This document shows positions 35,156 through 57,915 of a DNA stretch of 64,000 bases, piece by piece. Within the stretch, counting starts at the first letter, position 1. Every line of letters begins with the position of its first letter. The notes under the pieces were generated by a model. It had not been told where the DNA came from. It made no database searches and saw nothing but the letters and a program-made list of their open reading frames with translations. Source of the DNA: Chelatococcus albus (GTDB taxonomy: Bacteria > Pseudomonadota > Alphaproteobacteria > Rhizobiales > Beijerinckiaceae); NCBI RefSeq assembly GCF_030067675.1, contig NZ_JASJEV010000009.1, positions 62,001 to 126,000 of the forward strand, given 5' to 3'. A program made the translations under genes and the position numbers.

Positions 35156-35899
35156 ATGGGCGCTGTCGCCCTCGCGGTCGCCGATGACCAGCCGACCTAT
35201 TGGGACCGCGTCGCCGCCGGCCTCTGGGAACCCGGCACCCTGGCCGTGCTCGATCGCTGGCTCGATGGCGACACCGTCTTCGTCGACCTCGGTGCCTGGG
35301 TCGGGCCGACCGCGCTCTATGCCGCAGCCCTTGGCGCGCGCGTCTTCGCCGTGGAGGCGGATCCGGCGGCGCTCGATCAGCTCGCGCGCAATCTCGCCGC
35401 CAATCCGACGCTCGCCGAGCGCATCACGGTGATCGACCGCGCCATCCATCCCCATGCCGGCACCGTGACCTTCGGTGCCCGACGCAAGCCCGGTGATTCG
35501 ATGTCGAGCCTGCTCCTCGCCGGCGCGCCCACGACCTGGTCGGCCGAGACGATCACGCCGGCCGAACTGGCGGCCCTGCTGCCGTGCGACGGTCGGCGCT
35601 TCGTCAAGATCGACATCGAAGGGGCGGAATACGATCTCCTGCCCCATCTCGGCCCGCTCATGGACCGATCGGAGGCGGCGGTCCTTCTGTCCCTGCATCC
35701 GGGGATCCTCGCCGCCGGCCGCGGCCTCGACGCCAATGAGATCATACGCAGGACGGCGGCTGCTCTTGCACCCTTCCGCGGCTGGGGCGCCCACGCCGTG
35801 ACAAGCGCCGGCGCCGAATGGCGCACGGACGATGCCGCCAGCCTCGACCCGCGACGCGAAGTCCCGGAAACGGACGAGTGGCTCCTCGTCAGGTGCTGA
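35156..35899 (+). CDS. FkbM-family methyltransferase
   Basis: 247 residues from ATG 35156, which follows GAGAGG at normal distance; a TTG at 35135 behind AGGAGGAGG and a GTG at 35111 are in-frame alternatives. SAM-binding motif I is VFVDLGAWVGPTALYAAALG (about 40-59), followed by VFAVEADPAALDQLARNL and, later, RFVKIDIEGAEYDLLPHLG (about 143-161), the FkbM hallmark. Such enzymes O-methylate sugars or other small groups; substrate unknown. It is divergent from the SDR gene and its end overlaps the end of the convergent ferredoxin-cyclase gene by 11 bases. Confidence 0.85.
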   Translation: MGAVALAVADDQPTYWDRVAAGLWEPGTLAVLDRWLDGDTVFVDLGAWVGPTALYAAALGARVFAVEADPAALDQLARNLAANPTLAERITVIDRAIHPHAGTVTFGARRKPGDSMSSLLLAGAPTTWSAETITPAELAALLPCDGRRFVKIDIEGAEYDLLPHLGPLMDRSEAAVLLSLHPGILAAGRGLDANEIIRRTAAALAPFRGWGAHAVTSAGAEWRTDDAASLDPRREVPETDEWLLVRC

Positions 35900-37613
35900 C
35901 GACCTTCTTCGCAGGCGCCTCCGCGAGGAGCGCGAAATCCGGCACGACATAGACATGGATCCGCTCCCTGCGGCCGCGCACGGCGATCTCGTGCACGTCG
36001 CAGCCGGGCAGCGCAAAGCCCGACCCCTTGAGTGTCGCCTCGGACACGACGGCGAGGGAGCCATAGTCCTTCGTCAAGGTCTCGAGCCGGCTTGCGATAT
36101 TGACCGTGTCGCCGAGGGCAGTGAGCGCGGCATCGGTTCCCCCGGCAGCGGCCGACCCGACACGGCCGAGGACCGCAGGGCCGGTGTGGATGCCGATTCC
36201 CATCCGCAGGGGCTGCGGCAGGGTCATGGCGAACTCGGCGTTGAGCTCGGCAAGCGCCGCCTGCATGGCGCGCGCAGCGACGATGGCGTCACGGCTGCCG
36301 GCCCCTGGGGCCGGATCGACGCCGAAGAGGGCCATGATGCCGTCGCCCAGGAACTTGTCGACCATCCCGCCGCTGCCGCGAATGATCTCCCCCATCACCT
36401 CGAAATAGCGGTTGAGCAGGAACACGGAGTCGTAGGGATAGAGCTGTTCCGCGAGCGTCGTGAAGGCGCGCAGGTCCGCGAACATCACCGTCACGCGTCG
36501 CTCGACGCCCCAGCGATAGGGGTCGCGGGCGCGCCCGGTCGGCTCCGCTGGCACAACGGGCACGAGCTTGCGCACCGTCACGTCACGTTGCGGCCTGATC
36601 TGGCAGGCGAGGCGCACGCCTTCGGGCGCGCTGATGCGCGCGAGTGCCGCCGCCTCGGCCCCTTCGGCCGCCGGGAACTGGTCAGCGCCGTCGGTCACCA
36701 GCACACGGCAGGTGGTGCAGCGCCCCCGGCCGCCGCAGACCGAGGCGTGCGGAATGCCGTTCGCCCGACTGATCTCGAGGAGCGTCGGACCGGGACGGGC
36801 GCGGACGACCCTTCCCCCTGCGTAGCGCACGAGAAAGCCGCCCCCGAGCCGCGTGACCACGCGACGCGCCGCGATGGCGAGCACCGTCGCCAACGCCAGG
36901 GCGATGAGCAGGACATGGCCGCGGTTGATCATGCCTTGGGCGGCGAAGAATTGCTCGCGCGTCCAGGCTGGGGCCTCGAACTCGAACTCCTCCAGACGCC
37001 GTGCCGCCTCGATCCAGCCGGCCGTGGCCGTCACCGGCACGAGCACGGCAAGGCCGAGCAGCCAGGGCGCCCAACGCTCGTACCACGACTTGGTGTTGAG
37101 CCAGTGGTGAATGCCGATGCAGCCGTGCAGCCAGACGATGTAGAGCAGGAGCGTCTGTTGCAGCGCGGTCGACGGCCAGAGGATGCGCAGCTCGCGCGTA
37201 TAGGTATCGTCGATGCCAAAGGCGAGGTTCATGCCACGCGTGGCGACCACATGCTGCATGAGCCACACCGGGATGAGCAGACCGAGGCCGATCTGCAGAG
37301 CCTCCCACAGCGGCATGCGCCAGGTGTTGCGCCGGACGAGCTTGAACAGGCCGAGCCCGACGTGGAGGACGAGCGCGCCGTAGAGCAGCACGGTGCCGGG
37401 CGGAGAGCGCCAGAAGGCACGCCGGACGGCCTGCGCAGCATCCATCCACGTGACGTCGACGAGCCCGAGCGCATGGTTGAGAAAATGGGTCGCCGCGAAG
37501 GCGAAGAGCACGAGACCCGAGGCGAGGCGCAGGCGCTGGCGGTCGATGCGCAGGCCCGCTCGCCCGGCTGCCGACACCGCCCTGTCCTCGTGGCGTTCCG
37601 CCGTCTCGGTCAC
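35889..37613 (-). CDS. Adenylate cyclase fused to a His-rich membrane domain and a 2Fe-2S ferredoxin domain
   Basis: 574 residues in three parts. Residues 30-250 hold about six membrane helices with many histidines at helix positions (H43, H47, H84, H121, H163, H169, H170), resembling the diheme cytochrome b anchor of fumarate reductase/SdhC; heme binding is inferred. Residues 258-350 are a plant-type ferredoxin domain with C293, C299, C302 and C337 (C-x5-C-x2-C-x34-C), enough for one 2Fe-2S cluster. Residues 368-560 are a class III cyclase with metal aspartates D380 and D424 and transition-state N505 and R509 in GDTVNIASRLE, so it should be active. GTG start at 37613 overlaps the upstream cyclase stop. 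Probably makes cAMP under redox or electron-transport control. Confidence 0.9.
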   Translation of the reverse strand: MTETAERHEDRAVSAAGRAGLRIDRQRLRLASGLVLFAFAATHFLNHALGLVDVTWMDAAQAVRRAFWRSPPGTVLLYGALVLHVGLGLFKLVRRNTWRMPLWEALQIGLGLLIPVWLMQHVVATRGMNLAFGIDDTYTRELRILWPSTALQQTLLLYIVWLHGCIGIHHWLNTKSWYERWAPWLLGLAVLVPVTATAGWIEAARRLEEFEFEAPAWTREQFFAAQGMINRGHVLLIALALATVLAIAARRVVTRLGGGFLVRYAGGRVVRARPGPTLLEISRANGIPHASVCGGRGRCTTCRVLVTDGADQFPAAEGAEAAALARISAPEGVRLACQIRPQRDVTVRKLVPVVPAEPTGRARDPYRWGVERRVTVMFADLRAFTTLAEQLYPYDSVFLLNRYFEVMGEIIRGSGGMVDKFLGDGIMALFGVDPAPGAGSRDAIVAARAMQAALAELNAEFAMTLPQPLRMGIGIHTGPAVLGRVGSAAAGGTDAALTALGDTVNIASRLETLTKDYGSLAVVSEATLKGSGFALPGCDVHEIAVRGRRERIHVYVVPDFALLAEAPAKKVVST

Positions 37614-39028
37614 GCCGGTCGCCCCCCTTCGAGCGCCGCGCCGTCGGCTCTGCTCCGGCCGCCATCCCGGCGCGGAAGATAGACCAGATCGAGGGGCTCT
37701 TCGATGCCCGGCACCTGCTCGCCGGGCGCTGCCGCAAATAGGGCCGCGCCGGCAAAGCCCTGCGCCTCTGCAAGGGTGAAGGTGTTCCTGTCGGTGACGG
37801 CGCGGGCACCGAGCCGGCGATTGTGCTTCTCAAGCTTGGTGACGCGGTTCACCGGCTCGCCGATCACCGTGAATTCCAGCCGGTCCCCATCGCCGACAGT
37901 CCCGAAGATCACTTGGCCGGCGGCGACGGCGATACCGATCTCGACCGGCTCCCTGCCCTCGGCCGCAAGCTCGGCGGCGAAGCGCTCGGCCTCGGCGTCG
38001 AGGTCGAGCATCGCCTGCAGGGCCTGGGCGGCTGCGGCCGCGCTCTCGTGGGCGCAGCCGAAGGTCGCGAGGATGCCGTCTCCAAGGAACTTGTCGATGG
38101 TGCCGCCGTGCGCCGTGATCACGGCTGTCATGCGGCGCTGGTAGGCGACGAGGAGGCGGATGACCTCGCTCGGCGGCAGACGGGCGGCAAGTGTCGTGAA
38201 GCCGCGGATGTCGGTCATCAGGATAGCCCCCGCGCGGGTCTCGCCGCGCCCGGGGGCAAGCTCCTCGGCACGCGTGATGCGCTCGGCGATCTCCGGGTCG
38301 AAGAAGCGCGACAGATCTTCGGTGACGGTGTGGCCGATGGCGGCCGTGAGCAGCGCCCGCCGCGCCCGCGCGATCGACAGGGTGAGCACGGCGGTGAAGA
38401 GGAGGATCGCGACGATCTTCTCAACCTCGGCGCCGATGAGCATCGCGTTCGAGGTCATGTAGACGACGAAGTCGCGGGTCACGGCGGAACGCGCATCGGT
38501 GAAGACGAGCCATGCCATCACGGCCCAGCCGATCGCGGCAGTCAGCCCGGCCATGACGACGACGCGCGGCTCGAAGCGCAGCGTGCGCACGGCGATGAGA
38601 AGGAATGTGAAAAGGAAGCTCGGCGCCTTGAGCGAGAACGCGGGAGGTTGCCAGTACTGCAGATGGAAGGTCCAGATGAGGCCGTAGAGAAGCGCGAAAT
38701 CCGCCACGGTGAACAAGGTGACGGCGATGCCGTGCATGCGGCCGGTGTGCGCGAGCGTCAGGCGCAGCATGCCGAGCATCAGGCCGATGGAGACTGCGAT
38801 CGGTACCGGGCGCAGCTCACTGACGGCGTCGAGCGCCTTCGGCGTCAGGAGATAGAGGAGGCCGAGCAGCAGCACGATGCCGAAGACGAGCCAGGCCGAC
38901 AGGATCTCGGCCGCCTGTGTCTCGCCATCGACGATGGCCTGGACGCGTGCCGGCAGGCGGCCGAAGCGGCCGAAGAGCCTGCCCGCGAGACGCGCGCCGC
39001 GGCTGTCCTGCAGTTGCGAGAGCGTCAT
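37610..39028 (-). CDS. Membrane adenylate cyclase (class III, six helices)
   Basis: 472 residues. Six predicted membrane helices span about 42-220, then a linker (HTVTEDLSRFFDPEIAERI, about 233-251) and the catalytic domain (about 262-440). Metal aspartates D273 (ILMTDIRGF) and D317 (DKFLGDGI) are present. At the transition-state position the sequence is VNRVTKLE, with asparagine N394 but lysine K398 where the canonical arginine sits; related rhizobial cyclases also show lysine here, as far as I recall. Activity is likely but not certain. It lies between the cyclic-nucleotide-binding gene (122 bases upstream) and the ferredoxin-cyclase gene (4-base overlap). Confidence 0.88.
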   Translation of the reverse strand: MTLSQLQDSRGARLAGRLFGRFGRLPARVQAIVDGETQAAEILSAWLVFGIVLLLGLLYLLTPKALDAVSELRPVPIAVSIGLMLGMLRLTLAHTGRMHGIAVTLFTVADFALLYGLIWTFHLQYWQPPAFSLKAPSFLFTFLLIAVRTLRFEPRVVVMAGLTAAIGWAVMAWLVFTDARSAVTRDFVVYMTSNAMLIGAEVEKIVAILLFTAVLTLSIARARRALLTAAIGHTVTEDLSRFFDPEIAERITRAEELAPGRGETRAGAILMTDIRGFTTLAARLPPSEVIRLLVAYQRRMTAVITAHGGTIDKFLGDGILATFGCAHESAAAAAQALQAMLDLDAEAERFAAELAAEGREPVEIGIAVAAGQVIFGTVGDGDRLEFTVIGEPVNRVTKLEKHNRRLGARAVTDRNTFTLAEAQGFAGAALFAAAPGEQVPGIEEPLDLVYLPRRDGGRSRADGAALEGGRPA

Positions 39029-39150
39029 CCAGTCCGTCCACTCGGCGCGAATTGCGAGGCCAATCTACCGCGCGACGGTGCAAGCGACAGCAGCCATCGG
39101 GCAATCGTGATGCCGCGTGAGCTGCGGGGGCGGAGCGGACCGGGCCCGGC

Positions 39151-39594
39151 TCAGGAAGCGCGGCCAGCGAGTTGCGCGTTGGTGCGCTCCAGGCGCTTGG
39201 CGAGCTCGCGCATGACAGCGATGGACATCTGCGGGAATTGGCCGAGCAGCTCGAGAAACACGCGCTTGTCGATGCGCAGCGCGATGATGTCCGTATCGGC
39301 GAGCACGGTGGCGGAGCGCGGCGTCTCGGACAGGATGCCCATCTCGCCAACGAGATCGTTGCGGCCGAGCTCTGCGACCTTGATGACGCCCGTCGGGGCC
39401 TCGAGCATCACGTGCGCGCGGCCTTCGAGAATGACGTAGGCGGCGTCCGAAAGGTCGCCCTGGGAGAAGAAGCGCTGTCCCGGCGCGAAGGTCACGCGCT
39501 CGCTGGTGAAGGCGAGGAGCTTCAGGCGCGCGGGGTCGATGTCCTTGAACATCGGCACCTGCCGCAGGGACTGGACTTCGGTGTCGAGCGTCAT
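39151..39594 (-). CDS. Stand-alone cyclic-nucleotide-binding domain protein
   Basis: 147 residues that are little more than one CNB/CRP-type beta-roll plus the C-terminal helix; there is no DNA-binding domain and no membrane segment. The phosphate-binding cassette reads GEMGILSETPRSATV (83-97), with E84 and R93-S94 at the positions that hold cAMP ribose and phosphate in CRP, so binding should be intact. ATG 39594 overlaps the stop of the upstream ABC gene (ATGA), indicating coupling. Being encoded with two cyclases and the ABC protein, it probably reports cAMP level to that membrane protein; this is inference. Confidence 0.88.
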   Translation of the reverse strand: MTLDTEVQSLRQVPMFKDIDPARLKLLAFTSERVTFAPGQRFFSQGDLSDAAYVILEGRAHVMLEAPTGVIKVAELGRNDLVGEMGILSETPRSATVLADTDIIALRIDKRVFLELLGQFPQMSIAVMRELAKRLERTNAQLAGRAS

Positions 39595-42371
39595 GGCGTC
39601 TGCCTCTCAAACTCCGGTTCTGTTGTTGCCTTGTCGCTATCACGCAGAGGTTGCTGGACCGTGCCGGCGCCGACACCCGCCTCGCCGCCCTCGGCGGCGG
39701 GCGCCAGCGGCCCGCGGACCTGCTGCGGTCGGGGGCCCGTGAAGCGCACGAGGATATCGAAGTCGGCCGCCTGCGCCTCGTCGCGCAGGACGGCCACCAG
39801 ACTGCGGCCGCGGTAGGCCTCGGTGATCGTGGCGAGGAGGCTTGCCGCCTGCGCGTCGCCGTAGGACGCGAGGGCGCCGTCGAGCACGAGGATGTCCGGT
39901 TGTTTCACCAGGCAACGCACGAGCGCGACGCTGGCGCGCTGCTGGGCCGTGAGCAGACGTCCGCCCGGCCCGACCTGGAAGTCGAGCCCCACCCGGGCGA
40001 TGTCGTCGCGCATGCCGAGTTCGGAAATCACCTCGCCGGCGACCTTGGTCACCCGTTCGCGCGCATCCGCGATGCCGTGCGCCACGCGTCCGAAGAGGAG
40101 ATTGTCCCGGAGCGGCGCGGCGCCGCACACGCGCTCGGCGTCGTAGAGCTCGACCTCCTGCTCCCAGAGTGTGCCGCGCAGCTCGCGGCGGAAGCGCATC
40201 CGCGCCTCCACGATACGCGCCTTCAGCACGTCGTCGATGAGCCCGAGGCGATGCCGCGGCTCGACATAGTCGAGCGGCAGGACGAGGAGGCGGTTGCGGT
40301 CCTCGCGGGTCAGGCCCGACGCCCGCCGCGTTGCCCAGCGACGCACGATGTCCTCGTATTCGGGCAGGTCGTCCGCCGCGATGAAGGAGAATTGCTCGAA
40401 CAGCGGGTGCCCCGGCGGCAGGCCGCGGAAGATCTCCGTCATCGTCTGCGCGATGTCGCCCCCCATGCGCACGAGTTCGTCGGTGAGGTCCTCGGCGTCG
40501 AGCACGCGCCGCACCAGCGGATTGACGGCGCGAGCCCGCCCCGCAAAGGCGCCGCCCACCGACGCGCCGAACAGGAGGTTCTCGCCGATCGTCGCCTGGT
40601 TGTTGTAGCGCGCGGGATCGAAGGGCTCGACCAGCTGGCGCATGTCGCGGTCGGCAAGCTTGGCGCGCAGGAGGCCGCGGGCCTCGACGAGCTTTTCCGC
40701 GAGATGCGGATAGCGCGCCGGATCGACCCGGCCCGACAGGCCGAAACGATAGACGTCATCGCGCATGCCGACGAGCGCCAGCTCCTCGAGCAGCCGGTGA
40801 TCGAGCTCGTCCGCACCCTCAAGGCCCAGGGCGGCGTAGTCGATCCATTCGTCGTCCGGGCTCGCCTCGGGGTTGCCGGTGCGCGAGGCCTCGAGCCGGC
40901 GCCGGCGCTGTTCCGCGTCGTCCCCAGCGGCCCCGGGGCGCACCGGCCTGTGGCGCAGCCCATAGACGAGGTTGTCCCGCAGGGTCCCCGGAAAGAGGAT
41001 CGGATCGACACCCGCATAGGTGAGACGACGGCCCGTCACCGCTTCCGGCAGGCGCCTCAGATCCCGCCCGCCGATCGAGATCTGGCCGGTGAAATCGTCG
41101 ATCCGCCGCGCCAGCACCCGCGCCAGCACGCTCGGGCCGCCGCCCCCGTCCCCGACGAGGGCGATCCGCGCCGGCAGGTCCCAGGCGAAGGACGCGCCCT
41201 CGACCAGCGGCGAGCCGTGGCTGTCCATGACCCGCAGGTCCTTGACCACGAGCGGGCCCCGCAGCGGCTCGGCATCGGCTTCGGCGCCGGCGAAGACCTC
41301 CTCGGGAATGAGGCGCTCGGGCGCGAACTGCTGCGTGATCTGATCGTACTTGATCTGCACGTCGAGGCGCTGCTGATCCCAGTCGATCAGTTCCTTGAGC
41401 GGCGGCGGCAGCTCGCGATAGGCGGCGATGACGGCGACAAGCTGGCCGATGTCGAGCTTGCCCTTGAGCGCGAAATAGCCGCCGACCGAGTAGAAGAAGA
41501 ACGGCGTGATCTGCGCGAGCAGGTTGTTCAGGAACTTGACCGCGAACTTCCACTTGTAGATGCGGAAGCGCAGATCGAAGAGGTGGAAGAGCCGCTCGCC
41601 GATCTCGGCCTTCTCCCAGGCCGTGGCGTCGTGCACGTGCACGGCCTCCATGCCGTCGACGATCTCGCCGACGCGGCCTGCAAGCTTGCGTGAGGCGATC
41701 TGCCGCTCCTTGCCGAGACGCAGCTGTACGCGCCTGAGGCGCGGGATGACGACGAACTGGATGCCGACGATCGAGGCCGCGATGATGCCGAGCCAGACAT
41801 TCTGCAGCAGGATGAAGAGCATCGCGGTCGCGGCCTGCGTGCCAAGGAACATCGGCTGGATGAAGGCATCGCCGATGAAGCCGCCGATGGGCTCGACCTC
41901 GTCCTTGATGATGGTTGCCGTCTCTGACGCCTTGACCGTGCGCAGCGTCTCGGGCGGGAATCTGAATGTCAGCGAGAAGAGATCGAAGCGCATGCGCCGC
42001 AGCATGCGCTCCCCCAGTGCTCCTTTCGCCACATTGATCCAGTATTTGAAGGCGCCATTGACGAGGACGAGCACCAGGAACAACGTCGACAGGCCGAACA
42101 GGAGGCCGAGCTGGCCGACCGTGAAGCCTTCGAAGAAGGTGACGCGCGGCCCGCCCCCGAAAAGGGCTGGAGGGGTCGCGCCGATCTCGAGAAAGGTCGC
42201 CGTCGCCCGGCCGTCCTTGAACGCGCCGCCTTGAATCGCTTCGTTGACGATGCGCTTGGGCAGGTCGAGGGACCAGAAATAGAACGGCAGCGACGCGAGG
42301 ACCGCGGCAAAGATCACCAGCTGTTCGCGCCGCGTGTGTCGCCAGATGTAGCGAAAGAGGCTCTTCTCCAA
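39591..42371 (-). CDS. ABC-exporter-like membrane protein with degenerate, repeat-expanded nucleotide-binding domain
   Basis: 926 residues. TTG 42371 is chosen because AAGGAG lies six bases before it; an upstream in-frame ATG at 42464 has no such site. Residues 1-350 resemble an exporter membrane domain with six helices. The NBD begins near 370, but the Walker A place reads GDGGGGPS (407-414) with proline for lysine, the signature place reads LTAQQ (807-811), and Walker B ends ILVLDG (827-832) without the catalytic glutamate. Between them lie about 300 extra residues, and the post-Q-loop motif occurs three times: FPGTLRDNLVYG (460-471), QATIGENLLFG (592-602), AAPLRDNLLFG (751-761). It is unlikely to hydrolyse ATP in the normal way. 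First gene of the cAMP operon. Confidence 0.85.
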   Translation of the reverse strand: MEKSLFRYIWRHTRREQLVIFAAVLASLPFYFWSLDLPKRIVNEAIQGGAFKDGRATATFLEIGATPPALFGGGPRVTFFEGFTVGQLGLLFGLSTLFLVLVLVNGAFKYWINVAKGALGERMLRRMRFDLFSLTFRFPPETLRTVKASETATIIKDEVEPIGGFIGDAFIQPMFLGTQAATAMLFILLQNVWLGIIAASIVGIQFVVIPRLRRVQLRLGKERQIASRKLAGRVGEIVDGMEAVHVHDATAWEKAEIGERLFHLFDLRFRIYKWKFAVKFLNNLLAQITPFFFYSVGGYFALKGKLDIGQLVAVIAAYRELPPPLKELIDWDQQRLDVQIKYDQITQQFAPERLIPEEVFAGAEADAEPLRGPLVVKDLRVMDSHGSPLVEGASFAWDLPARIALVGDGGGGPSVLARVLARRIDDFTGQISIGGRDLRRLPEAVTGRRLTYAGVDPILFPGTLRDNLVYGLRHRPVRPGAAGDDAEQRRRRLEASRTGNPEASPDDEWIDYAALGLEGADELDHRLLEELALVGMRDDVYRFGLSGRVDPARYPHLAEKLVEARGLLRAKLADRDMRQLVEPFDPARYNNQATIGENLLFGASVGGAFAGRARAVNPLVRRVLDAEDLTDELVRMGGDIAQTMTEIFRGLPPGHPLFEQFSFIAADDLPEYEDIVRRWATRRASGLTREDRNRLLVLPLDYVEPRHRLGLIDDVLKARIVEARMRFRRELRGTLWEQEVELYDAERVCGAAPLRDNLLFGRVAHGIADARERVTKVAGEVISELGMRDDIARVGLDFQVGPGGRLLTAQQRASVALVRCLVKQPDILVLDGALASYGDAQAASLLATITEAYRGRSLVAVLRDEAQAADFDILVRFTGPRPQQVRGPLAPAAEGGEAGVGAGTVQQPLRDSDKATTEPEFERQTP

Positions 42372-42728: not shown

Positions 42729-43988
42729 ATGGCGGCAGCGACGAGGGTAGAGGGGGCGGGATCGGCCGGCGGCGGGTCGGAGAGCGCGCGGGTGCTCATC
42801 TACAGCCACGACACGTTCGGGCTGGGGCATCTGCGCCGTTCGCGCGCCATCGCCAACGCGCTGGTGACGGACCGGCCCGGGGTATCCGTCGTCATCATCT
42901 CCGGCTCGCCGGTCATCGGCAATTTCGAGTTCGGCTCCGGCGTCGACTACGTGCGCGTGCCCGGCGTGGTGAAGCTGCCGAACGGTGACTATCGCAGCCT
43001 CAACCTCAACGTCGAGCTCGACGAGGCGGTCGGCCTGCGGGCGGCCATCATCCAGCAGACGGCCGACACCTTCGGCCCGGACCTCGTCATCGTCGACAAG
43101 GAGCCGACCGGCTTTCGCGGCGAGATCGTGCCGGCGCTCGAGCGGCTGAAGGAGCGGGGCACGCGCATCGTGCTCGGCGTGCGGGACGTCATGGACGAGC
43201 CGGCGCTGCTCGTGCCCGAGTGGGAGCGCAAGGGCGCGGTCGACGCCCTCGCCGCCTATTACGACGAGACCTGGGTCTACGGTCTCAGGGAGATCTACGA
43301 GCCGCTGTCGGGCCTCGCCCTGCCTGGAGAGGTCCGACAGCGCATCGCCTATACCGGCTACCTGCGGCGCAGCCTGCCGCAGGAGCCCGGGTTCATGCGC
43401 TATCCCAAGAGTACCAAGGGCCCCTTCATCCTGCTGACGACGGGCGGCGGCGGCGACGGAGACGACCTGATCGACTGGGTGATCTCCGCCTACGAGACCG
43501 ATGCCGGTCTCGACCTGCCGGCCGTGATCGTCTTCGGCCCCTTCATCAACCGCGACCGGCGGCGCAGCTTCGCCGAGCGCATCGCCCGGCACCCGAAGCT
43601 CGACGCCATCGCCTTCGACACCAAGCTCGAATATCTCATGAACCGGGCCACGGCGGTGGTGGCCATGGGCGGCTACAACACCTTCTGCGAGGTGCTGTCG
43701 CTCGACAAGCCGGCCCTGATCGTGCCGCGCACGAGCCCGCGGCTCGAACAATACATCCGGGCCATGCACGCCGAGCGCCTGGGCCTCGTGCGCATGCTCG
43801 TCGACGACGAGGCCGAGCGCGATCCGGCCCGCATGGCGGCGGCCCTGCGGGCATTGCCGGCGCAGAAGCGCCCCTCGCAGGTCATCGTGCCGGGTCTCCT
43901 CGACGGGCTCGACGTCATCCAACGGCGTTTCGCCGGCTGGCTGGCCGAGCGCCCCCGCCGCATCGCCATAAGTGAGGCCGCAGAGTGA
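42729..43988 (+). CDS. Glycosyltransferase, GT-B fold (MurG/GT28-like)
   Basis: 419 residues. The N-terminal half has SHDTFGLGHLRRSRAIANAL (about 26-45), the glycine-rich acceptor loop of MurG-like enzymes, and the C-terminal half has VVAMGGYNTFCEVLSLDKP (about 312-330) and LIVPRTSPRLEQYIRA, the donor-nucleotide site. No membrane segment. ATG 42729 follows CAGGAG. It is the first of four collinear genes ending at 48467, and is paralogous to the first half of the fourth gene (LGVGHLARAAAIARAL, SQAGYNTVVDL). Donor and acceptor unknown; assembly of a surface or storage glycan is likely. Confidence 0.85.
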   Translation: MAAATRVEGAGSAGGGSESARVLIYSHDTFGLGHLRRSRAIANALVTDRPGVSVVIISGSPVIGNFEFGSGVDYVRVPGVVKLPNGDYRSLNLNVELDEAVGLRAAIIQQTADTFGPDLVIVDKEPTGFRGEIVPALERLKERGTRIVLGVRDVMDEPALLVPEWERKGAVDALAAYYDETWVYGLREIYEPLSGLALPGEVRQRIAYTGYLRRSLPQEPGFMRYPKSTKGPFILLTTGGGGDGDDLIDWVISAYETDAGLDLPAVIVFGPFINRDRRRSFAERIARHPKLDAIAFDTKLEYLMNRATAVVAMGGYNTFCEVLSLDKPALIVPRTSPRLEQYIRAMHAERLGLVRMLVDDEAERDPARMAAALRALPAQKRPSQVIVPGLLDGLDVIQRRFAGWLAERPRRIAISEAAE

Positions 43989-44065
43989 GCGCGCGTCCTC
44001 GCTGCCCGTTGGCGGCCCACCGCTGTCGACCATCCGCGGATGATGAGCATGGCTGAGAGAAACGT

Positions 44066-45370
44066 GTGACCGGTCCTCGTTCCGACATCGGCCGCATCGC
44101 CGTCGTGGTGAAGGGCTATCCGCGCCTGTCGGAAACCTTCATCGCGCAGGAGATCCTGGCGCTCGAGGAGCGCGGGCTGCCCCTCGACATCTGGTCGCTT
44201 CGCCACCCGACCGAGCGCGTCGTGCATCCGATGCACGAGCGCATCCGGGCGCGCCCCACCTATCTTCCGGAGTATCTCTACCAGGAGCCCCTGCGCGTCC
44301 TGCGCGGCCTCCTGTGGAGCCTGCGCCAGCCGGGGTTCCGCCGGCTTATCCGCATCTTCCTGCAGGATCTGAAGCGCGACCCCACTCCGAACCGCGGGCG
44401 CCGGCTCGGTCAGGCCTGCGTGATGGCGCGGGAGCTGCCCGCCGGCGTGCGCCACCTGCATGTGCATTATCTGCACACGCCGGCGTCGGTGGTGCGCTAT
44501 GCCGCCATCCTGCGCGGGCTCGCCTGGTCCTTCTCGGCCCATGCCAAGGACATCTGGACGACGCCCGACTGGGAGAAGCGCGAGAAGATCGCGGAAGCCG
44601 CCTGGGGCGTCACCTGCACGGCCGCCGGCCACGCGCATCTCGCCATGCTCGCCCCGCCGGCGGACCCTGCGCGCGTGGCCCTCGCCTATCACGGGCTCGA
44701 CCTGTCGCGCTTTCCCAGCCCCCCGCAGCGGCCGGCGCGCGACGGCTCGGACCCGGCCGATCCCGTGCGCATCGTCTCGGTGGGCCGGGCAGTGGCGAAG
44801 AAGGGCTTCGACGACCTGCTCAACGCCCTCGCCGCGCTGCCTGAGGACCTCAACTGGCGCTTCGCCCATATCGGCGGCGGCGAGATGCTGGGCGCGCTGA
44901 AGAGGCAGGCCGAGGCAGCCGGCGTCGCCGGCAAGGTCGCGTTCCTCGGCGCCAAGGCCCAGCCCGAGGTGATCGCGCTGATGCGCGAGGCGGACGTCTT
45001 CGTGCTGCCGGCCAAGCGCGCCCGCTCGGGCGACCAGGACGGTCTGCCGAACGTGGTCATGGAGGCGGCGAGCCAGGAACTCGCCATCGTGGCGAGCGAT
45101 TTCGCCGGCATTCCGGAATTCGTGCGGGATGGCCGCGAGGGCGTGCTCGTGTCGCCCGGCGACTGGGAGGCCCTCGCCAACGCCCTCAATCTCATCGCCC
45201 GCGAGCCCGCACGGCGCGCCGCCCTCGGCCGGGCCGCGCACGCGCGGCTGCGCGAGGCCTTTTCCATCGACGCCGGCCTCGACCTCATCGAGGCACGGCT
45301 GCGCCACTCGCTCGGGCAGATGCCGCTCGCGGACGGGTACCGGGAGCCCGCGGAGGCGACGGCCCCGTGA
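44066..45370 (+). CDS. Glycosyltransferase family 4 protein
   Basis: 434 residues, GTG start at 44066. GT-B fold: N-terminal VVVKGYPRLSETFIAQEI (about 12-29), which is typical of GT4 enzymes of exopolysaccharide clusters, HLHVHYLHTPASVVRYAAIL (about 131-150), and the C-terminal donor site with SVGRAVAKKGFDDLL (about 236-250) and AKRARSGDQDGLPNVVMEA (about 316-334), where the E-x7-E motif lies. Cytoplasmic or membrane-associated. It begins 77 bases after the first gene and overlaps the third by four bases. Confidence 0.9.
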   Translation: MTGPRSDIGRIAVVVKGYPRLSETFIAQEILALEERGLPLDIWSLRHPTERVVHPMHERIRARPTYLPEYLYQEPLRVLRGLLWSLRQPGFRRLIRIFLQDLKRDPTPNRGRRLGQACVMARELPAGVRHLHVHYLHTPASVVRYAAILRGLAWSFSAHAKDIWTTPDWEKREKIAEAAWGVTCTAAGHAHLAMLAPPADPARVALAYHGLDLSRFPSPPQRPARDGSDPADPVRIVSVGRAVAKKGFDDLLNALAALPEDLNWRFAHIGGGEMLGALKRQAEAAGVAGKVAFLGAKAQPEVIALMREADVFVLPAKRARSGDQDGLPNVVMEAASQELAIVASDFAGIPEFVRDGREGVLVSPGDWEALANALNLIAREPARRAALGRAAHARLREAFSIDAGLDLIEARLRHSLGQMPLADGYREPAEATAP

Positions 45371-46497
45371 GCGGCGGCTTCCCCATCGCCTTCTACGCGC
45401 CGCTGAAGGCGCCCGACCACCCCTCGCCCTCGGGCGACCGCCGCATGGCGCAGCTCCTGATGCAGGCCCTGACGCAGGCCGGCTTCGTGCCGGGCCTCGC
45501 GAGCCACCTGCGCACGCTTGACCTCGTCGGCGATGCCGTGGCGCAGGAGCATCTGGCGGCCGAGGGCCGCGCCGAAGCGGAGCGGCTCGTTGCCGTCTAT
45601 CGCGCGCTCGCGCCCGAGGCGCGGCCGCGGCTGTGGTTCACCTACCACGTCTATTACAAGGCCCCGGACTGGATCGGGCCGCGCGTCGCGCGCGCGCTCG
45701 CCATCCCCTACGTGGTGGCGGAAGGGTCGCGCGCGGCCAAGCGCGCGCGCGGCCCCTGGGCCATCGCCAACCAGGCGGCCGAGGCTGCGCTCGATGCCGC
45801 GGACGTGATCTTCGTCATGACGGAGGCCGACCGGCCGGCCCTCGAAGCAGCGCGCCCGGCGCGCCAGAGCCTCGTCGCCCTGCCGCCCTTCATCGACTGG
45901 CCCTGCCATGCCGCCGGCGCCGGACGGCCGCCCACAGGGGGCGCCCACCTCCTCACCGTCGCCATGATGCGGCGGGGCGACAAGCTCGCGAGCTATCGCC
46001 TGCTCGCCGAGAGCCTCGCCAGCCTTGCGGATCTGGCATGGCATCTCACCATCGTGGGCGACGGCGAGGCGCGGTCGGAGGTGGAAGCTCTCTTCGCCCC
46101 CCTGGCCGGGCGCGTGACCTTCCGCGGACTGGTGGGAGAGGAGGCCGTGCTCGCGCGCCTCTATGCGGGGGCCGACCTCTTCCTGTGGCCGGCCGTCAAC
46201 GAAGCCTACGGCATGGCCTTCCTCGAGGCACAGGCCTGCGGCTGCCCCGTCGTGGCCGGCCACTTCGGCGGCGTCGCCGACGCATTGCGCGACGGGGAGA
46301 CGGGGCTTCTCGTCGAGCCAGGCAATGCCGCCGTCTTCGCCGATGCCGTGCGCGGACTCCTCGCCGCGCCGGCACGGCGGGAGGCGATGGCCGCGGCCGC
46401 GCGACGCTTCATTGCGGAAGAGCGCACCGTGGCGGGCGCCGCAGCGATCCTGCGGCGCGCGCTTCTGCCGCTCCTCGCCGAGGAGCCGACGGCATGA
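45367..46497 (+). CDS. Glycosyltransferase family 4 protein
   Basis: 376 residues, GTG start at 45367 overlapping the previous stop. GT-B fold with an N-terminal FYAPLKAPDHPSPSGDRRMAQ (split here as FYAPLKAPDHPSPSGDRR) typical of a subgroup of proteobacterial GT4 enzymes, LTVAMMRRGDKLASY (donor domain start, about 196-210), FLWPAVNEAYGMAFLEAQAC (about 271-290) with the E-x7-E motif, and PGNAAVFADAVRGLL near 320. It precedes the fusion gene with an ATGA overlap. Substrate unknown. Confidence 0.88.
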   Translation: MSGGFPIAFYAPLKAPDHPSPSGDRRMAQLLMQALTQAGFVPGLASHLRTLDLVGDAVAQEHLAAEGRAEAERLVAVYRALAPEARPRLWFTYHVYYKAPDWIGPRVARALAIPYVVAEGSRAAKRARGPWAIANQAAEAALDAADVIFVMTEADRPALEAARPARQSLVALPPFIDWPCHAAGAGRPPTGGAHLLTVAMMRRGDKLASYRLLAESLASLADLAWHLTIVGDGEARSEVEALFAPLAGRVTFRGLVGEEAVLARLYAGADLFLWPAVNEAYGMAFLEAQACGCPVVAGHFGGVADALRDGETGLLVEPGNAAVFADAVRGLLAAPARREAMAAAARRFIAEERTVAGAAAILRRALLPLLAEEPTA

Positions 46498-48467
46498 GCC
46501 TGAGTGTCCTCATCACCGTCACGCATCTGCTCGGCGTCGGCCATCTCGCCCGCGCGGCGGCGATCGCCCGCGCGCTCGCCGCGGCAGGCCACGACGTGAC
46601 GCTCGTGTCCGGCGGCATGCCGGCGCCGCTCGTACGCACCGGACGGCTGCGCTTCGTGCAGCTGCCGCCTGTGCGCTCCGCCGGCACAGCCTTCTCGACA
46701 CTCCTCGACGAGGACGGTCGTCCGGCCTCCTCCGCGCTCCTCGCCGAACGCCGCCGCGAGCTCACGGCCATCTTCGCCCGGATGCGACCGGACGTGATGG
46801 TCACCGAACTCTTCCCCTTCGGGCGGCGGATGCTCGCGGACGAGTTCATGGCCCTCCTCGCCGCGGCGGAGGCCTGCCGACCGCGCCCGGTCACCCTCGC
46901 TTCCGTGCGCGACGTGCTGGTCGCGCCGGCCAAGCCCGAACGCATCGCCGAGGCGCACCGGCGCCTGTTCCGCCACTACGACGGCGTGCTCGTGCACGGC
47001 GATCCGGCCATATTGCCGCTCGAGGCCTCCTGGCCGCTCGATGCGACCCTTGCCCCGCTCCTGCGCTACACGGGCTACGTCGGCGAGCCGGCGCCAGAGG
47101 ACGACGAACCCGCCGGCGACGGCCGCGACGAGATCGTCGTTTCAGGCGGGGGCAGCGCCGCCGCCCTGCCGCTCTACCGCGCCGCGGCGGAGGCGGCGCG
47201 CCTCGTGCGCGAGAAGCGCTGGCGCCTTCTCCTCGGCGCAGGCGTGGTCCAGGCGGATTTCGCCGCCGTCGCGGCGCGCGCCACGGACAACCTCGTCGTC
47301 GAGCGCGCCCGCCCGGATTTTCCCCTTCTCGTCGGCCGCTCGGCCGTCTCGGTGAGCCAGGCGGGCTACAACACCGTCGTTGACCTCTTCGGCACCGGCG
47401 TGAAAGCGGTGCTCGTACCCTTCGAGGAAGGCAACGAGACCGAGCAGCGGCTGCGCGCCGACCGTCTGGCGAGCCACGGCCTCGTCACCGTCCTGCCGCA
47501 GGGCGAGCTGACCGCCGGCAATCTCGCCCGCGCCGTGCGTGCGGCCCTCGCCCTGCCTCCACCCGAGGCGACGGCGATCGACTGCGGCGGGCTCGCGACG
47601 ACGGTTCGCCTCGTCGAGGAATTCGCGAGGCGGCGGGGAGGCCTGGCCGCGCCCGCCCTCGCCGCGAACAGCGCGGAGAGCGCGTGGCGCCGCCTCGACG
47701 ATGCGCTGGCCACGGCGGTGGCGTCCGGCGACACGCTCGCCTTCTGGTGGCGCGACGACGACGCGACGGCGCCGACGCCGGCCCTCGACCGTCTCCTGAC
47801 CCTCGCCCGCCGTCACGCCGCGCCGGTGGCGCTCGCCGCGATCCCCGCCGCTGCGACGCGGGCATTGGCGGAGCGGCTGGCCGACGAACCTCTGGCGAGC
47901 CCGCTGGTGCACGGCCTCTCCCACCGCAACCATGCCCCGGCAGACGAGAAGAAGGCGGAGTTCGGCGCCCATCGGCCGACGGCCGCGCTGGTCGCCGATG
48001 CCGAGCGGGCGCTCGCCACCGCGCGCGAGCGTTTCGGAGCCCGGCTCTTGCCCATCTTCGTGCCGCCCTGGAACCGCATCGCGCCGGCACTCGTCGCCGA
48101 ACTGCCTGCGCTCGGCTTCTGCGGGCTGTCCACCTTCCGCGACCGGCCGGCAACCGAGGCCGCCCCAGGGCTCATCCAGGTGAACACGCATCTCGATCCG
48201 GTCGACTGGCACGGTAGCCGCAGCCTCGTCGCCGAGGACATGCTGCTCGACGGGCTGGTCCGGGCGATCGCGGCCCGCCGCCGTGCCGACGATACTCTCG
48301 AGCCGATCGGTCTCCTCACCCACCATCTCGTCCATGACGAGGCGATCTGGTCGTTCTGCGAGCGCCTGATCGAGCGTCTCTGCCGGCACGCAGGGGTTCG
48401 CATCCATGCGGCACGCGAGGTCTTTGCCGCTCCGTCGGCGGGAAGCGGCGTCGATGGTCCGGCCTAG
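46494..48467 (+). CDS. Fusion of a MurG-like glycosyltransferase and a polysaccharide-deacetylase-like domain
   Basis: 657 residues. Residues 1-380 are a GT-B enzyme with VTHLLGVGHLARAAAIARAL (about 9-28) and SVSQAGYNTVVDLFG (about 285-299), paralogous to the first gene of this operon. From about 400 a NodB/CE4-like domain begins: FWWRDDDA at 417-424 gives the aspartate pair, HGLSHRNH at 473-480 gives H473, H477 and H480 as possible metal ligands, and FVPPWNRIAP near 522 matches the CE4 active-site arginine/tryptophan strand. One protein may therefore add and then deacetylate a sugar. ATG 46494 overlaps the previous stop. Alternative: the second domain may be an inactive relative. Confidence 0.82.
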   Translation: MSLSVLITVTHLLGVGHLARAAAIARALAAAGHDVTLVSGGMPAPLVRTGRLRFVQLPPVRSAGTAFSTLLDEDGRPASSALLAERRRELTAIFARMRPDVMVTELFPFGRRMLADEFMALLAAAEACRPRPVTLASVRDVLVAPAKPERIAEAHRRLFRHYDGVLVHGDPAILPLEASWPLDATLAPLLRYTGYVGEPAPEDDEPAGDGRDEIVVSGGGSAAALPLYRAAAEAARLVREKRWRLLLGAGVVQADFAAVAARATDNLVVERARPDFPLLVGRSAVSVSQAGYNTVVDLFGTGVKAVLVPFEEGNETEQRLRADRLASHGLVTVLPQGELTAGNLARAVRAALALPPPEATAIDCGGLATTVRLVEEFARRRGGLAAPALAANSAESAWRRLDDALATAVASGDTLAFWWRDDDATAPTPALDRLLTLARRHAAPVALAAIPAAATRALAERLADEPLASPLVHGLSHRNHAPADEKKAEFGAHRPTAALVADAERALATARERFGARLLPIFVPPWNRIAPALVAELPALGFCGLSTFRDRPATEAAPGLIQVNTHLDPVDWHGSRSLVAEDMLLDGLVRAIAARRRADDTLEPIGLLTHHLVHDEAIWSFCERLIERLCRHAGVRIHAAREVFAAPSAGSGVDGPA

Positions 48468-48711: not shown

Positions 48712-50601
48712 GTGACGGCAGGGGCGACGGCGGGCAAGCCGCTTCTTTCGATCCGCGACCTCGTGGTGGATTTCGCGAGCGACGGCGGCACCTTCCGTGC
48801 GGTCGACGGCATCTCGTTCGACATTCCGCGTGGACGCACGGTGGCGCTCGTCGGCGAGTCCGGGTCGGGCAAATCCGTCACGGCGCAGGCGATCCTGCGC
48901 ATCCTGCCGAAGGCGGCGCGCATCGCCGGCGGCGCCATCCTCTTCGACGATCCGGCGAACGGCCGCGGCCCCACCGACATCGCGGCGCTCGCCGCGGACG
49001 GCGCGCCAATGCGGGCCCTGCGCGGCGGCCGTATCGCCATGATCTTCCAGGAGCCGATGACCTCGCTGTCGCCGCTGCACACCATCGGCAACCAGGTGAT
49101 CGAGGCGCTTCGCCTGCACCGCAAGGTGTCACCGGAGGAGGAACGCGCCGCGGCGGAGGAGGTGTTCGCGCACGTCGGCTTTCCCGATCCCAAGCGCGCC
49201 TTCGTGACCTATCCCTTCGAGCTGTCGGGCGGCATGCGCCAGCGCGCCATGATCGCCATGGCACTCATCTGCCGCCCGGCGCTGCTCATCGCCGACGAGC
49301 CGACGACCGCCCTCGACGTGACGACGCAGGCCCAGATCCTCGACCTCATGCGCTCGCTCCAGGCCGAGACGGGGATGGCCATCCTCCTGATCACGCACGA
49401 TCTCGGCGTCGTGGCCAACATGGCCGACGATGTGGTCGTCATGTATCGCGGCCGCATCATGGAGACGGGCTCGCGCAAGGAGATCTTCCACGATCCACGG
49501 CACCCCTACCTCAAGGCGCTCATGCACGCCGTACCCCGCTTCGGCATGGCGCCGGGCGAGCGGCTGACGCCTCTGCGCGAGGTGGCGAGCGCCGGCATCA
49601 TCGCGGCCACGCCGAAGCTGCATCGTCCGAAGCCGGCCGGGCCGGTGCTGCAGGCGGAGGGCCTGTCCAAGCGCTACACGCTGCGCTCGGGCTGGTTCCT
49701 CGGCCAGACCCACCACGTGAAGGCCGTGAACAACGTCAGCCTGACCTTGGCCCCGGGCAAGACGCTCGGCCTCGTCGGCGAATCCGGCTGCGGCAAGACG
49801 ACCGTCTCTAAGATCATCATGCGCGCGATGGCGCCGGACACCGGCCGCGTGCTCTTCGACGACGGCACGGGCCCGCGCGACGTGCACGGCCTCGACGGCG
49901 ACGACCTGTTCGCCTACCGGCGCGCGGTGCAGTTCGTGTTCCAGGATCCGTTCTCGTCGCTCAACCCGCGCATGACGGTCTACGAGATCCTCACCGAGCC
50001 GCTCGTCATCCACGAGCTCGGCACCCCGGAGGAGCGTTTCGCCAAGGCGAAGATGCTCATCGAGCTCGTCGGTCTCGACAAGCGCCACCTGCGCCGCTAT
50101 CCGCACTCCTTCTCCGGCGGACAGCGCCAGCGGCTCGGCATCGCCCGGGCGCTCGCCCTGTCGCCGCGCGTCCTGCTCTGCGACGAGCCCGTGTCGGCGC
50201 TCGACGTCTCGGTGCAGGCGCAGATCCTCAACCTGCTCAAGGACCTGCAGGCGGCTCTCGGCCTGTCCTACCTCTTCGTCTCCCACAATCTCGCGGTCGT
50301 CGATTACATCGCTGACACCATTGCCGTCATGTGCCGCGGCTACATCGTCGAGGAGGCACCGAAGGCGACGCTGTTCAGGAACCCGCGGCATCCCTACACG
50401 CAGGCGCTCCTCGCCGCCGTTCCGAGCCCGGATCTCGACCATCCGCTGGATTTCGACAAGCTGCGCAGCGACCGCTTCTCCGATCCCTCCGACTGGCCGG
50501 AGCCCTATCGGCTCGTCGCAGGCAGCGCCGGTGTCATGCGCGAGGTCGAGCCCGGCCATCGCGTGCGCATAGCGGCCGGTCATGCCCGGGAGGCGGCGTG
50601 A
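48712..50601 (+). CDS. Yej-like peptide importer ATPase with two nucleotide-binding domains
   Basis: 629 residues, GTG start 48712. Domain 1: Walker A GESGSGKS (about 47-54), signature LSGGMRQR (about 172-179), Walker [14 protein letters not shown]. Domain 2 from about 310: Walker A GESGCGKT (about 357-364), [12 protein letters not shown], signature FSGGQRQR (about 470-477), Walker [14 protein letters not shown]. Both sets are canonical. The tandem arrangement equals YejF, or a DppD-DppF fusion. It is the first gene of the operon ATPase-binding protein-permease-permease; its stop overlaps the next start (TGATG). Confidence 0.94.
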
Positions 50602-52604: not shown

Positions 52605-53617
52605 TCGGCTTCCTCGCCCGCCGACTCGTCACGATGGCGATGACGCTCCTCGTCATCAGCGCCCTCGTCTTCCTCATCATCAAGCTGCCGCCGGGCGACT
52701 TTCTCTCGAACCAGATCGCCGAGCTGAGGGCGCAGGGCGAGGCAGCCTCCGCCGCCAAGGCCGAGTTCCTGATCAAGCAATACGGCCTCGACAGGCCCGC
52801 CTGGGAGCAATACCTCGTGTGGATCGGCATATGGCCGGGTCCGGCCGGCTTTTCCGGCCTGCTGCAGGGCGACTGGGGCTGGTCCTTCGAATACGACAAG
52901 CCGGTCCGCGACGTGGTCGGCGACGCCCTGTGGCTGACGTTGCTCGTCAACCTCGCCGTCGTCGTCTTCGTCCACCTGATGTCGATCCCGATCGCCATCT
53001 ATTCGGCGACGCGCCAGTATTCCTGGGGCGACTATGTCGCCACCTTCATCGGCTACATCGGCCTCGCCACGCCGAACTTCCTGCTTGCGCTCATCCTGCT
53101 CTATTACTTCAATCGCTGGTTCGGCATTTCCATCGGTGGGCTCTTCGACGCACAATACGCCAATGCGCCGTGGAGCTGGGGCAAGTTCGTCTCGCTCCTG
53201 CAGCACCTCATCGTGCCGACCATCGTCATCGGGCTCGCCGGCACCGCGGCGATGATCCGGCGCATGCGCGCCAACCTGCTCGACGAACTCGGCAAGCAGT
53301 ATTACATTACCGCGAAGGCGAAGGGCGTGCCGCCGACGAGGGCGCTGCTCAAATATCCCTTCCGCATGGCGCTCAACCCGTTCATTGCCGACATCGGCAA
53401 CCTCCTGCCGCACCTCGTCTCAGGGTCGGTGCTGGTGTCGCTCGTGCTGAGCCTGCCCACGGTCGGGCCGATCCTGCTCGCGGCGCTGAAATCGCAGGAC
53501 CAGTTCCTCGCCGGTTTCATCCTGATGTTCGTGGCGCTGCTCACGGTCGTGGGCATGCTCATTTCCGACCTGATGCTCGCGTGGCTCGACCCGCGCATCC
53601 GGCTCGGGCAGCGGTGA
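52601..53617 (+). CDS. Yej-like peptide importer, permease 1
   Basis: 338-residue BPD_transp_1 permease, ATG 52601 overlapping the binding-protein stop. First helix GFLARRLVTMAMTLLVISAL (about 3-22), then a periplasmic segment with IKQYGLDRPAWEQYL (about 62-76) and GDWGWSFEYDKPVRDVVGD, and a cytoplasmic docking loop TAKAKGVPPTRALLKYPFRM (about 239-258). It ends DPRIRLGQR. Forms the channel with the next gene product. Confidence 0.93.
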   Translation: MIGFLARRLVTMAMTLLVISALVFLIIKLPPGDFLSNQIAELRAQGEAASAAKAEFLIKQYGLDRPAWEQYLVWIGIWPGPAGFSGLLQGDWGWSFEYDKPVRDVVGDALWLTLLVNLAVVVFVHLMSIPIAIYSATRQYSWGDYVATFIGYIGLATPNFLLALILLYYFNRWFGISIGGLFDAQYANAPWSWGKFVSLLQHLIVPTIVIGLAGTAAMIRRMRANLLDELGKQYYITAKAKGVPPTRALLKYPFRMALNPFIADIGNLLPHLVSGSVLVSLVLSLPTVGPILLAALKSQDQFLAGFILMFVALLTVVGMLISDLMLAWLDPRIRLGQR

Positions 53618-53624
53618 GGGCCTC

Positions 53625-57830: not shown

Positions 57831-57915
57831 TGGTGGCCTCGGCGGGGATCGAACCCGCACACCCGAAGGTCCCGAATTTTAAGTTCGGTGCGTCTACCAG
57901 TTTCGCCACGAGGCC
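57831..57915 (-). tRNA. tRNA-Leu, anticodon UAA
   Basis: On the minus strand GGCCTCG-T-GGCGAAACTGGTAGACGC opens the gene; the anticodon stem CCGAA/TTCGG encloses loop CTTAAAA, giving anticodon TAA. A variable arm (GACCTTCGGGT region), T-arm GGTTCGATCC and acceptor CGAGGCC followed by A and CCA complete 85 bases with the CCA encoded. The long variable arm and GACGC D-loop are tRNA-Leu marks. Confidence 0.95.

Follow-up and report, generated by a model that had tools for sequence, protein, structure and literature searches.

A stand-alone cyclic-nucleotide-binding protein paired with an ABC exporter-fold protein in Chelatococcus albus and its relatives: a candidate cAMP-controlled membrane switch

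In bacteria, cyclic AMP (cAMP) is known chiefly as a messenger that works through transcription factors. Direct action of a second messenger on a membrane-bound glycan machine is the logic by which cyclic di-GMP (c-di-GMP) controls glycan synthesis and export. HetC of Nostoc PCC 7120 is described, in the available part of its report, as a peptidase-containing ATP-binding cassette (ABC) exporter with a cyclic-nucleotide-binding (CNB) domain needed in vivo; an ATPase residue is required, and the N-terminal CNB-type domain bound guanosine tetraphosphate (ppGpp), not cAMP (PMC10986499). Ferredoxin-type class IIIb cyclases have, according to the accessible sections of their source, succinate-dehydrogenase-like anchors of six transmembrane segments with four intramembrane histidines and two predicted haems (PMC4821796), and CyaC of Sinorhizobium meliloti, from a source likewise available in part, is the comparison cyclase used below (PMC10463352). 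Here, a 64,000-nucleotide stretch of the Chelatococcus albus genome (hereafter the window; contig NZ_JASJEV010000009.1) was analyzed, in which the gene of an ABC exporter-like protein predicted to lack a working ATPase site adjoins that of a stand-alone CNB protein and is followed by two class III cyclase genes.

The four genes lie on the minus strand. That of the ABC protein (39591-42371; 926 amino acids) starts at a TTG behind AAGGAG, a further TTG at 42464 also being in the open frame, and overlaps the CNB gene (39151-39594; 147 amino acids) by four bases (39591-39594). A gap of 122 bases (39029-39150), in which a consensus scan, weak and missing other promoter types, found neither a sigma-70-like promoter nor a terminator-like hairpin, separates the CNB gene from that of a membrane cyclase (37610-39028; 472 amino acids; Pfam catalytic match at about 37823-38227). 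This gene shares four bases (37610-37613) with the GTG-initiated gene of a redox cyclase (35889-37613; 574 amino acids), in which a six-transmembrane anchor, a [2Fe-2S] domain and a class III catalytic domain follow one another. Pfam matches above the curated cut-offs were ABC_membrane (2.2e-12) and ABC_tran (1.7e-8, in two stretches) for the ABC protein, cNMP_binding (6.7e-19) for the CNB protein, Guanylate_cyc (1.6e-11) for the membrane cyclase, and Guanylate_cyc (1.3e-17) with Fer2 (6.9e-9) for the redox cyclase. A first-pass annotation of the window had described the same packing and had read the genes as encoding an ABC protein without an ordinary ATPase site, a CNB protein without an output domain and two cyclases that together form a closed unit. 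All its coordinates were confirmed and each of the protein descriptions stood up to the analyses reported here; the closed unit did not, as shown below. Absent from it were a divergent glycosyltransferase cluster, a metallo-beta-lactamase-fold hydrolase that follows the CNB gene elsewhere, and repeats within the nucleotide-binding domain of the ABC protein.

As in HetC, so far as the available part of its description goes, an ABC exporter fold is joined here to a CNB-type domain; unlike in HetC, the ATPase site of the window protein appears lost, and the CNB protein is separate, or C-terminal in fusions, with a cAMP-type cassette. Pfam matches to the window proteins, taken up to E 1, included no C39 peptidase; Peptidase_M41 appeared at 0.046, below cut-off. 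The redox cyclase resembles the class IIIb enzymes and CyaC in its histidine-bearing anchor, ferredoxin domain and class III catalytic domain. In the available portions of both sources these enzymes are linked with predicted haem binding, with quinone redox state and with transcription factors, and no ABC-CNB pair or glycosyltransferase appears there as a partner (PMC4821796, PMC10463352). By sequence it carries the features of the ferredoxin class IIIb group, namely four or more anchor histidines, the [2Fe-2S] cysteine set and the catalytic residues. With the c-di-GMP glycan systems the logic is shared, whereas the messenger, the receptor domain and the membrane protein family all differ. The ABC-CNB system is a fresh variation on the CNB-coupled ABC exporter and on the messenger-controlled glycan machine, the redox cyclase itself being of a kind already described. 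No published description of the ABC-CNB pair was found among titles and abstract beginnings of the open-access literature, outside which most subscription papers lie.

The pair was then followed across genomes. Sixty genomes, the window's own included, were searched, of which 24 carried a full-length ABC orthologue and 36 did not; all Fisher values given below ignore kinship. A total of 204 loci was gathered, comprising the window, 23 relatives, 80 named loci (the best 80 of 575 confirmed) and 100 stretches picked from search lists. Exclusion of 10 loci with the transmembrane part only and removal of 9 near-duplicates left 185 distinct loci, whose ABC proteins were placed on a FastTree tree used for all counts of gains and losses. 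The CNB gene lay directly downstream of the ABC gene in 152 loci and was fused to it in 22, and 11 had none. By source, 22 adjacent and 2 fused cases came from the relatives (n=24), 63 adjacent, 1 fused and 10 without from the named loci (n=74), 57 adjacent and 1 without from order and class loci taken by score (n=58), and 10 adjacent and 19 fused from hand-picked long frames and second copies (n=29). Because 19 of the fusions stem from this last, hand-picked source, the fused share (22/185) is not a frequency. On the tree, absence of the CNB takes 2 changes and fusion at least 3.

All 24 ABC-positive relatives had a CNB after the ABC protein (in fused form in G013 and G037), and CNB orthologues, accepted at E up to 1e-20, occurred in 24/24 ABC-positive versus 2/36 ABC-negative genomes (Fisher 9e-15). 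The C. albus genome (4.0 Mb) contains 8 CNB-domain and 13 cyclase matches; from the former, the chance of finding a same-strand CNB gene no more than 700 bases downstream was estimated at about 0.0007. Since the ABC and CNB genes are adjacent or fused in 174 of the 185 distinct loci, their neighbourhood is not due to chance. The pairing is still present at 30% ABC identity (L031), and one natural fusion (L219) was predicted with a mean pLDDT, the per-residue model confidence, of 82.8 and a pTM of 0.69, the CNB forming its C-terminal domain. The same models gave a CNB or cyclase match in 0/9 ABC-paralogue loci and 0/10 transmembrane-only loci, in stretches of 3-18 kb; a CNB partner for the transmembrane-only relatives, considered as a candidate, was not found in the fetched stretches. 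The core unit is the ABC-CNB pair.

The ABC protein is found in many Alphaproteobacteria. Profile matches turned up in 124 of the 397 genomes sampled at the level of the order and in 132 of the 385 at that of the class, counts that include paralogue-only or partial matches, against 32 of the 398 at that of the phylum, 31 of these belonging to the same class or nearer. It also sits on plasmids of legume symbionts, 144 of 277 plasmid records being from Rhizobium and 80 from Sinorhizobium; in S. meliloti 2011 the locus is on pSymB. In one annotated copy the two proteins are labelled "ABC transporter ATP-binding protein" and Crp/Fnr regulator. The pair was also seen in two records labelled as Betaproteobacteria metagenome bins (L164, L174).

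The CNB protein has the features expected of a cAMP pocket. Its phosphate-binding cassette VGEMGILSETPRSATVLAD (39295-39351, minus strand) holds the Gly-Glu and Arg positions, of which Gly is kept in 174/174 loci, the acid as Glu in 163 and Asp in 11, and Arg in 163/174, and solved relatives include the regulatory domains of PKA and PKG. A public record labels the S. meliloti CNB "Crp/Fnr family transcriptional regulator". Pfam found only cNMP_binding in the 147 residues of the window protein, with no output or C-terminal DNA-binding domain; because it lacks such a DNA-binding domain, a role as a CRP/FNR transcription factor was rejected. Against TIGR03896, which we take to denote bacteriocin-type transport-associated CNB proteins near exporter genes, with two CNB copies and active exporters beside them, it scored 6.7e-10, far below cut-off; the likeness lies in a CNB protein beside an exporter-type gene. 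From pairing, fusions and pocket, the assignment of the CNB protein as a regulatory subunit of the ABC-like protein is well supported: it would sense cAMP on behalf of an ABC exporter-fold protein that has probably lost ordinary ATP hydrolysis.

By sequence and predicted fold, the ABC protein is an ABCB-like half exporter. Its AlphaFold2 model (918 residues) has a pLDDT of 90.2 and a pTM of 0.86, and the best Foldseek matches were structures of P-glycoprotein, Atm1-type transporters, MsbA and TmrAB, their TM-scores over the query being low (0.24-0.39). Numbered from the TTG at 42371, the transmembrane domain spans about residues 5-348 (41328-42359, minus strand as for the segments below), as delimited by the Pfam ABC_membrane match at 94-316 and the helices of the model. 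This domain and the two ends of the nucleotide-binding domain share the fold of ABCB/MsbA-type exporters; the protein differs from them in some 280 additional residues that include helical segments in repeat, and in the loss of catalytic residues, so that by sequence an ABCB/MsbA-type transmembrane domain is present, and neither the catalytic residue set nor an uninterrupted nucleotide-binding domain is. The best-aligned stretches against solved ABC proteins stop near profile position 470-516 or start near 745-795, which indicates that the nucleotide-binding domain is interrupted. The insert lies between Q-loop and signature and contains, by profile-profile comparison, two extra copies of the domain's own Q-loop/helical segment, around the motif N-L-L-F-G. 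The first copy covers residues 444-560 (40692-41042) and matches the third with E 1.8e-7 (probability 90); the second (residues 568-720; 40212-40670), in which the repeat takes up roughly the first half of the stretch, matches the third with E 5e-13 (probability 98) and the first with E 5.5e-6 (probability 69); the third (residues 728-812; 39936-40190) runs into the signature region. Asn598 and Gly761 are kept in 185/185 ABC proteins and Asn757 in 184/185.

Four catalytic positions of the window protein read P, D, G and R. The Walker A motif is the degenerate GDGGGGPS (residues 407-414; 41130-41153), with Pro413 in place of the lysine; in Walker B (residues 827-832; 39876-39893) Asp831 is kept and Gly832 replaces the catalytic glutamate; and Arg863 takes the place of the switch histidine. 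Over the 185 proteins, the Walker A lysine is present in 47, the Walker B aspartate in 72, the following glutamate in 38 and the switch histidine in 18, and all four occur together in two (L252, L259). Many lysine-bearing members have an acid right after the lysine and an asparagine for the Walker B aspartate, a pattern that would fit a loss starting with Mg-ATP hydrolysis. The ABC proteins are, as judged from their sequences, a coherent family, and random decay of the gene was rejected on conservation up to class level together with the confident predicted fold.

These data bear on one alternative, namely that the protein is a cAMP-gated exporter that still transports, either in partnership with an active half-transporter whose gene lies elsewhere or by an unusual handling of nucleotide through the repeats, and flips or exports a glycosyltransferase product. 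There are exporters that form heterodimers in which one site is dead, the matches of the ABC protein include TM0288 and TmrAB, and most invariant columns of the family fall in the transmembrane domain; the Walker B aspartate is kept in the window as well as in the 72 proteins counted above, and L252 and L259 retain the complete set. With that complete set confined to two of 185 proteins, we regard continued transport as unlikely.

Divergently from the ABC gene, on the plus strand, runs a cluster of four glycosyltransferase genes (42792-48467), identified by family matches: GTa (42792-43988), GTb (44066-45370), GTc (45367-46497) and GTd (46494-48467). GTa, the lead gene, was found in 23/24 ABC-positive versus 2/36 ABC-negative genomes (Fisher 2.9e-13), and in 22/23 versus 0/21 when genomes of at least 3.4 Mb were compared; of the 170 loci whose upstream sequence exceeded 3 kb, 119 had GTa or GTb within 8 kb. 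A glycosyltransferase is a near-constant companion of the ABC protein. In several Rhizobium loci glycosyltransferase genes lead into the ABC-CNB pair in the same direction, and in S. meliloti they are likewise co-directed with it, with a reverse-strand methyltransferase gene in between. Judged from co-occurrence alone, a surface glycan is the likely output of the system, and the cluster a candidate for making it.

The cyclases show a different distribution. Both occurred together in four of 185 loci (the window, L038, L039 and L045), and a same-strand cyclase gene of any type stood no more than 4 kb downstream in 37/185. Of the 162 loci whose downstream sequence exceeded 4 kb, 48 had a cyclase no farther than 6 kb off, to the left or right, a state gained or lost at least 23 times on the tree. 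The first-pass annotation had itself named scarcity of the cyclases beside the ABC and CNB genes in related genomes as grounds for refuting the closed unit, and on these counts the unit was rejected. By that criterion the cyclases are optional partners, the redox cyclase being a frequent one. What survives of the four-gene interpretation is that the CNB protein goes with the ABC protein (174/185, with 22 fusions) and that the redox cyclase is linked to both.

That link was evident in the 60 genomes, where the redox cyclase was present in 19/24 ABC-positive versus 2/36 ABC-negative relatives (Fisher 3.4e-9), or 18/23 versus 2/21 among genomes of at least 3.4 Mb (4.3e-6); it lay within 6 kb in 28/162 loci, with at least 11 changes on the tree. 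The membrane cyclase was present in 11/24 versus 1/36 genomes (Fisher 6.6e-5), kept its metal and substrate residues in 10/10 cases and had lysine in place of the transition-state arginine in 10/10. In the window, the catalytic positions of the redox cyclase read D, K, D, T, N and R, all present. Its membrane anchor (36849-37532, minus strand) bears conserved His43, 47, 84, 121 and 163, putative haem ligands, and its Fer2 domain (36588-36812, minus strand) the four cysteines. That the redox cyclase is a frequent source of the CNB ligand is fairly supported.

The varying cyclases around a constant ABC-CNB pair could also be read in the reverse direction, the ABC-like protein sensing a membrane-associated ligand and, through the CNB protein, setting local cAMP or cyclase activity as a feedback scaffold; CNB proteins can buffer cAMP. 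Since 114/162 loci have no cyclase within 6 kb and the near-constant companion is a glycosyltransferase, we consider this reversal improbable.

In one clade, cyclase site and cAMP pocket have also decayed together. The comparison was made on 30 loci with a redox cyclase within 6 kb, leaving out L156 (frame stopping before the catalytic part), the second anchor gene of L227 (no catalytic part) and L197 (8.4 kb off). The metal, lysine and asparagine residues of the redox cyclase were intact in 16 loci and degenerate in 14. The pocket arginine of the CNB was present in 16/16 beside an intact cyclase versus 7/14 beside a degenerate one (Fisher 0.0017), and a wider cassette pattern was intact in 16/16 versus 0/14; over all 174 CNBs this pattern was intact in 149, with 5 changes on the tree. 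The redox centres were spared, the four cysteines being kept in 30/30 loci and the five histidines in 29/30.

Combined, these results led us to a model to which we assign a probability of slightly under one half (about 0.48). cAMP made under redox control would bind the CNB protein, the second membrane cyclase providing an extra input in Chelatococcus and a small number of further lineages. The cAMP-loaded CNB would dock onto, or be part of, the cytoplasmic domain of the ABC-like protein, where the repeated helical segments may form a large docking or coupling surface. Docking would alter the state of the transmembrane domain, which in turn would gate the handling of a glycan from the glycosyltransferase cluster, be it flipping, export or enzyme recruitment. 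The ABC-CNB pair would then be a non-hydrolysing membrane switch between respiration-dependent cAMP and surface glycan. Of this, the sequences establish the pairing with its fusions, the repeats, the missing ATPase residues, the conservation of the pocket and the co-occurrence with glycosyltransferases and redox cyclase; contact between unfused CNB and ABC proteins, the identity of the ligand as cAMP, the signalling direction, a glycan output and any transport are inferred.

Several observations weigh against this model. The ABC protein need not adjoin a CNB, because 11 of the 185 loci have none nearby (seven named Methylobacterium, one Phreatobacter, L166, L195 and L252), not even as a weak match within the fetched stretch; L166, L195 and L252 retain more ATPase motifs. 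Conversely, the ABC-negative relative G011 keeps an orphan CNB (L317, G011:C1:2685885), 67% identical to that of the window, with no labelled partner in the surrounding stretch. Because some members keep single ATPase residues, such as the Walker A lysine in 47/185, the ABC protein may still bind nucleotide. The redox cyclase is missing in 5 of 24 ABC-positive relatives and adjoins the pair in 8 of the 19 genomes with both, lying elsewhere in 11; of six such distant copies fetched, one (L321) stood beside GTc, GTd and the hydrolase gene and one (L322) with a weak nucleotide-binding-domain match, and the remaining four had no labelled neighbour from the set. The co-decay is confined to one clade, with a single change of each trait on the tree, and therefore counts as one natural experiment instead of fourteen, and a reading as many independent events was rejected; the wider cassette pattern was, moreover, defined after 25 of the 30 loci had been inspected. 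Finally, the metallo-beta-lactamase-fold hydrolase gene, found after the CNB in other lineages (co-directed and no more than 4 kb downstream in 19/185 loci) and in 8/9 ABC-paralogue stretches, says little, because its product scores better with NCBIfam ribonuclease Z models (7.6e-19) than with that for cyclic-nucleotide phosphodiesterases (4.5e-13), none of these matches reaching the cut-off; a function as cAMP phosphodiesterase is not supported.

That the CNB is an ordinary small effector acting on its own, with the ABC gene a degenerate passenger kept by operon inertia, could draw on the public Crp/Fnr label, the CNB-less loci and the orphan CNB and is, in our view, very unlikely given the missing DNA-binding domain, the 22 single-chain fusions, the conserved and confidently folded ABC protein and a pairing that holds at 30% identity.

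Further features surround these genes. The gene of the redox cyclase and a convergent one for an FkbM-type methyltransferase share 11 bases (35889-35899), likewise in the relative L039, and in S. meliloti an FkbM gene comes after the CNB gene. Behind the glycosyltransferases, the window carries oligopeptide-type ABC importer genes (48712-54794); related importer genes adjoin the glycosyltransferase, ABC and CNB genes of S. meliloti (64% identity for the gene at 53625). At gathering thresholds, a tRNA-Leu (taa) at 57831-57915 was the sole RNA family match in the window. In deeper lineages (L254, L271, L285 and similar) a Methyltransf_17 gene follows the CNB gene (tested in L285), and a histidine phosphatase lies within the glycosyltransferase operon (tested in L267). 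Rhizobium sp. FKY42 (L180) has the order hydrolase, redox cyclase, DUF3095 protein, cyclase, ABC, CNB, the DUF3095 gene (L180:6019-7182; E 1.5e-136) standing between two cyclases upstream of the pair; Agrobacterium vitis (L201) has the same order minus that gene. The repeat-insert ABC protein has a paralogue family (G000:C34:145047-147524, L061, and L062-L069), with a sugar epimerase-like next gene in L061 and Glycos_transf_4 in L062. The transmembrane-domain-only relatives (L209-L218) measure about 330-450 amino acids where called; in L209 a small adjoining gene is weakly copper-chaperone-like (PCuAC 7e-6, below cut-off), and one of similar size follows in L213 and L216.

The ABC-CNB pair, together with sugar-chain genes and a redox cyclase, suggests an unnamed route by which respiration could control the cell surface. 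It is possible, if rather doubtful, that this is a new class of second-messenger effector, in which an ABC fold gave up ATP hydrolysis and came under the control of cAMP by way of a CNB that is paired with it or fused to it, and respiratory redox state gates surface glycan without ATP-driven transport. One lineage might now be purely a protein-to-protein redox switch, because cyclase site and cAMP pocket decayed together there and the redox centres stayed. If the model is true, the pair would be a widespread, non-transcriptional effector of cAMP at the membrane, with copies on plasmids of tractable legume symbionts; redox-sensing cyclases would gain a candidate target, and the family would offer a case of an ABC fold retained without its motor.

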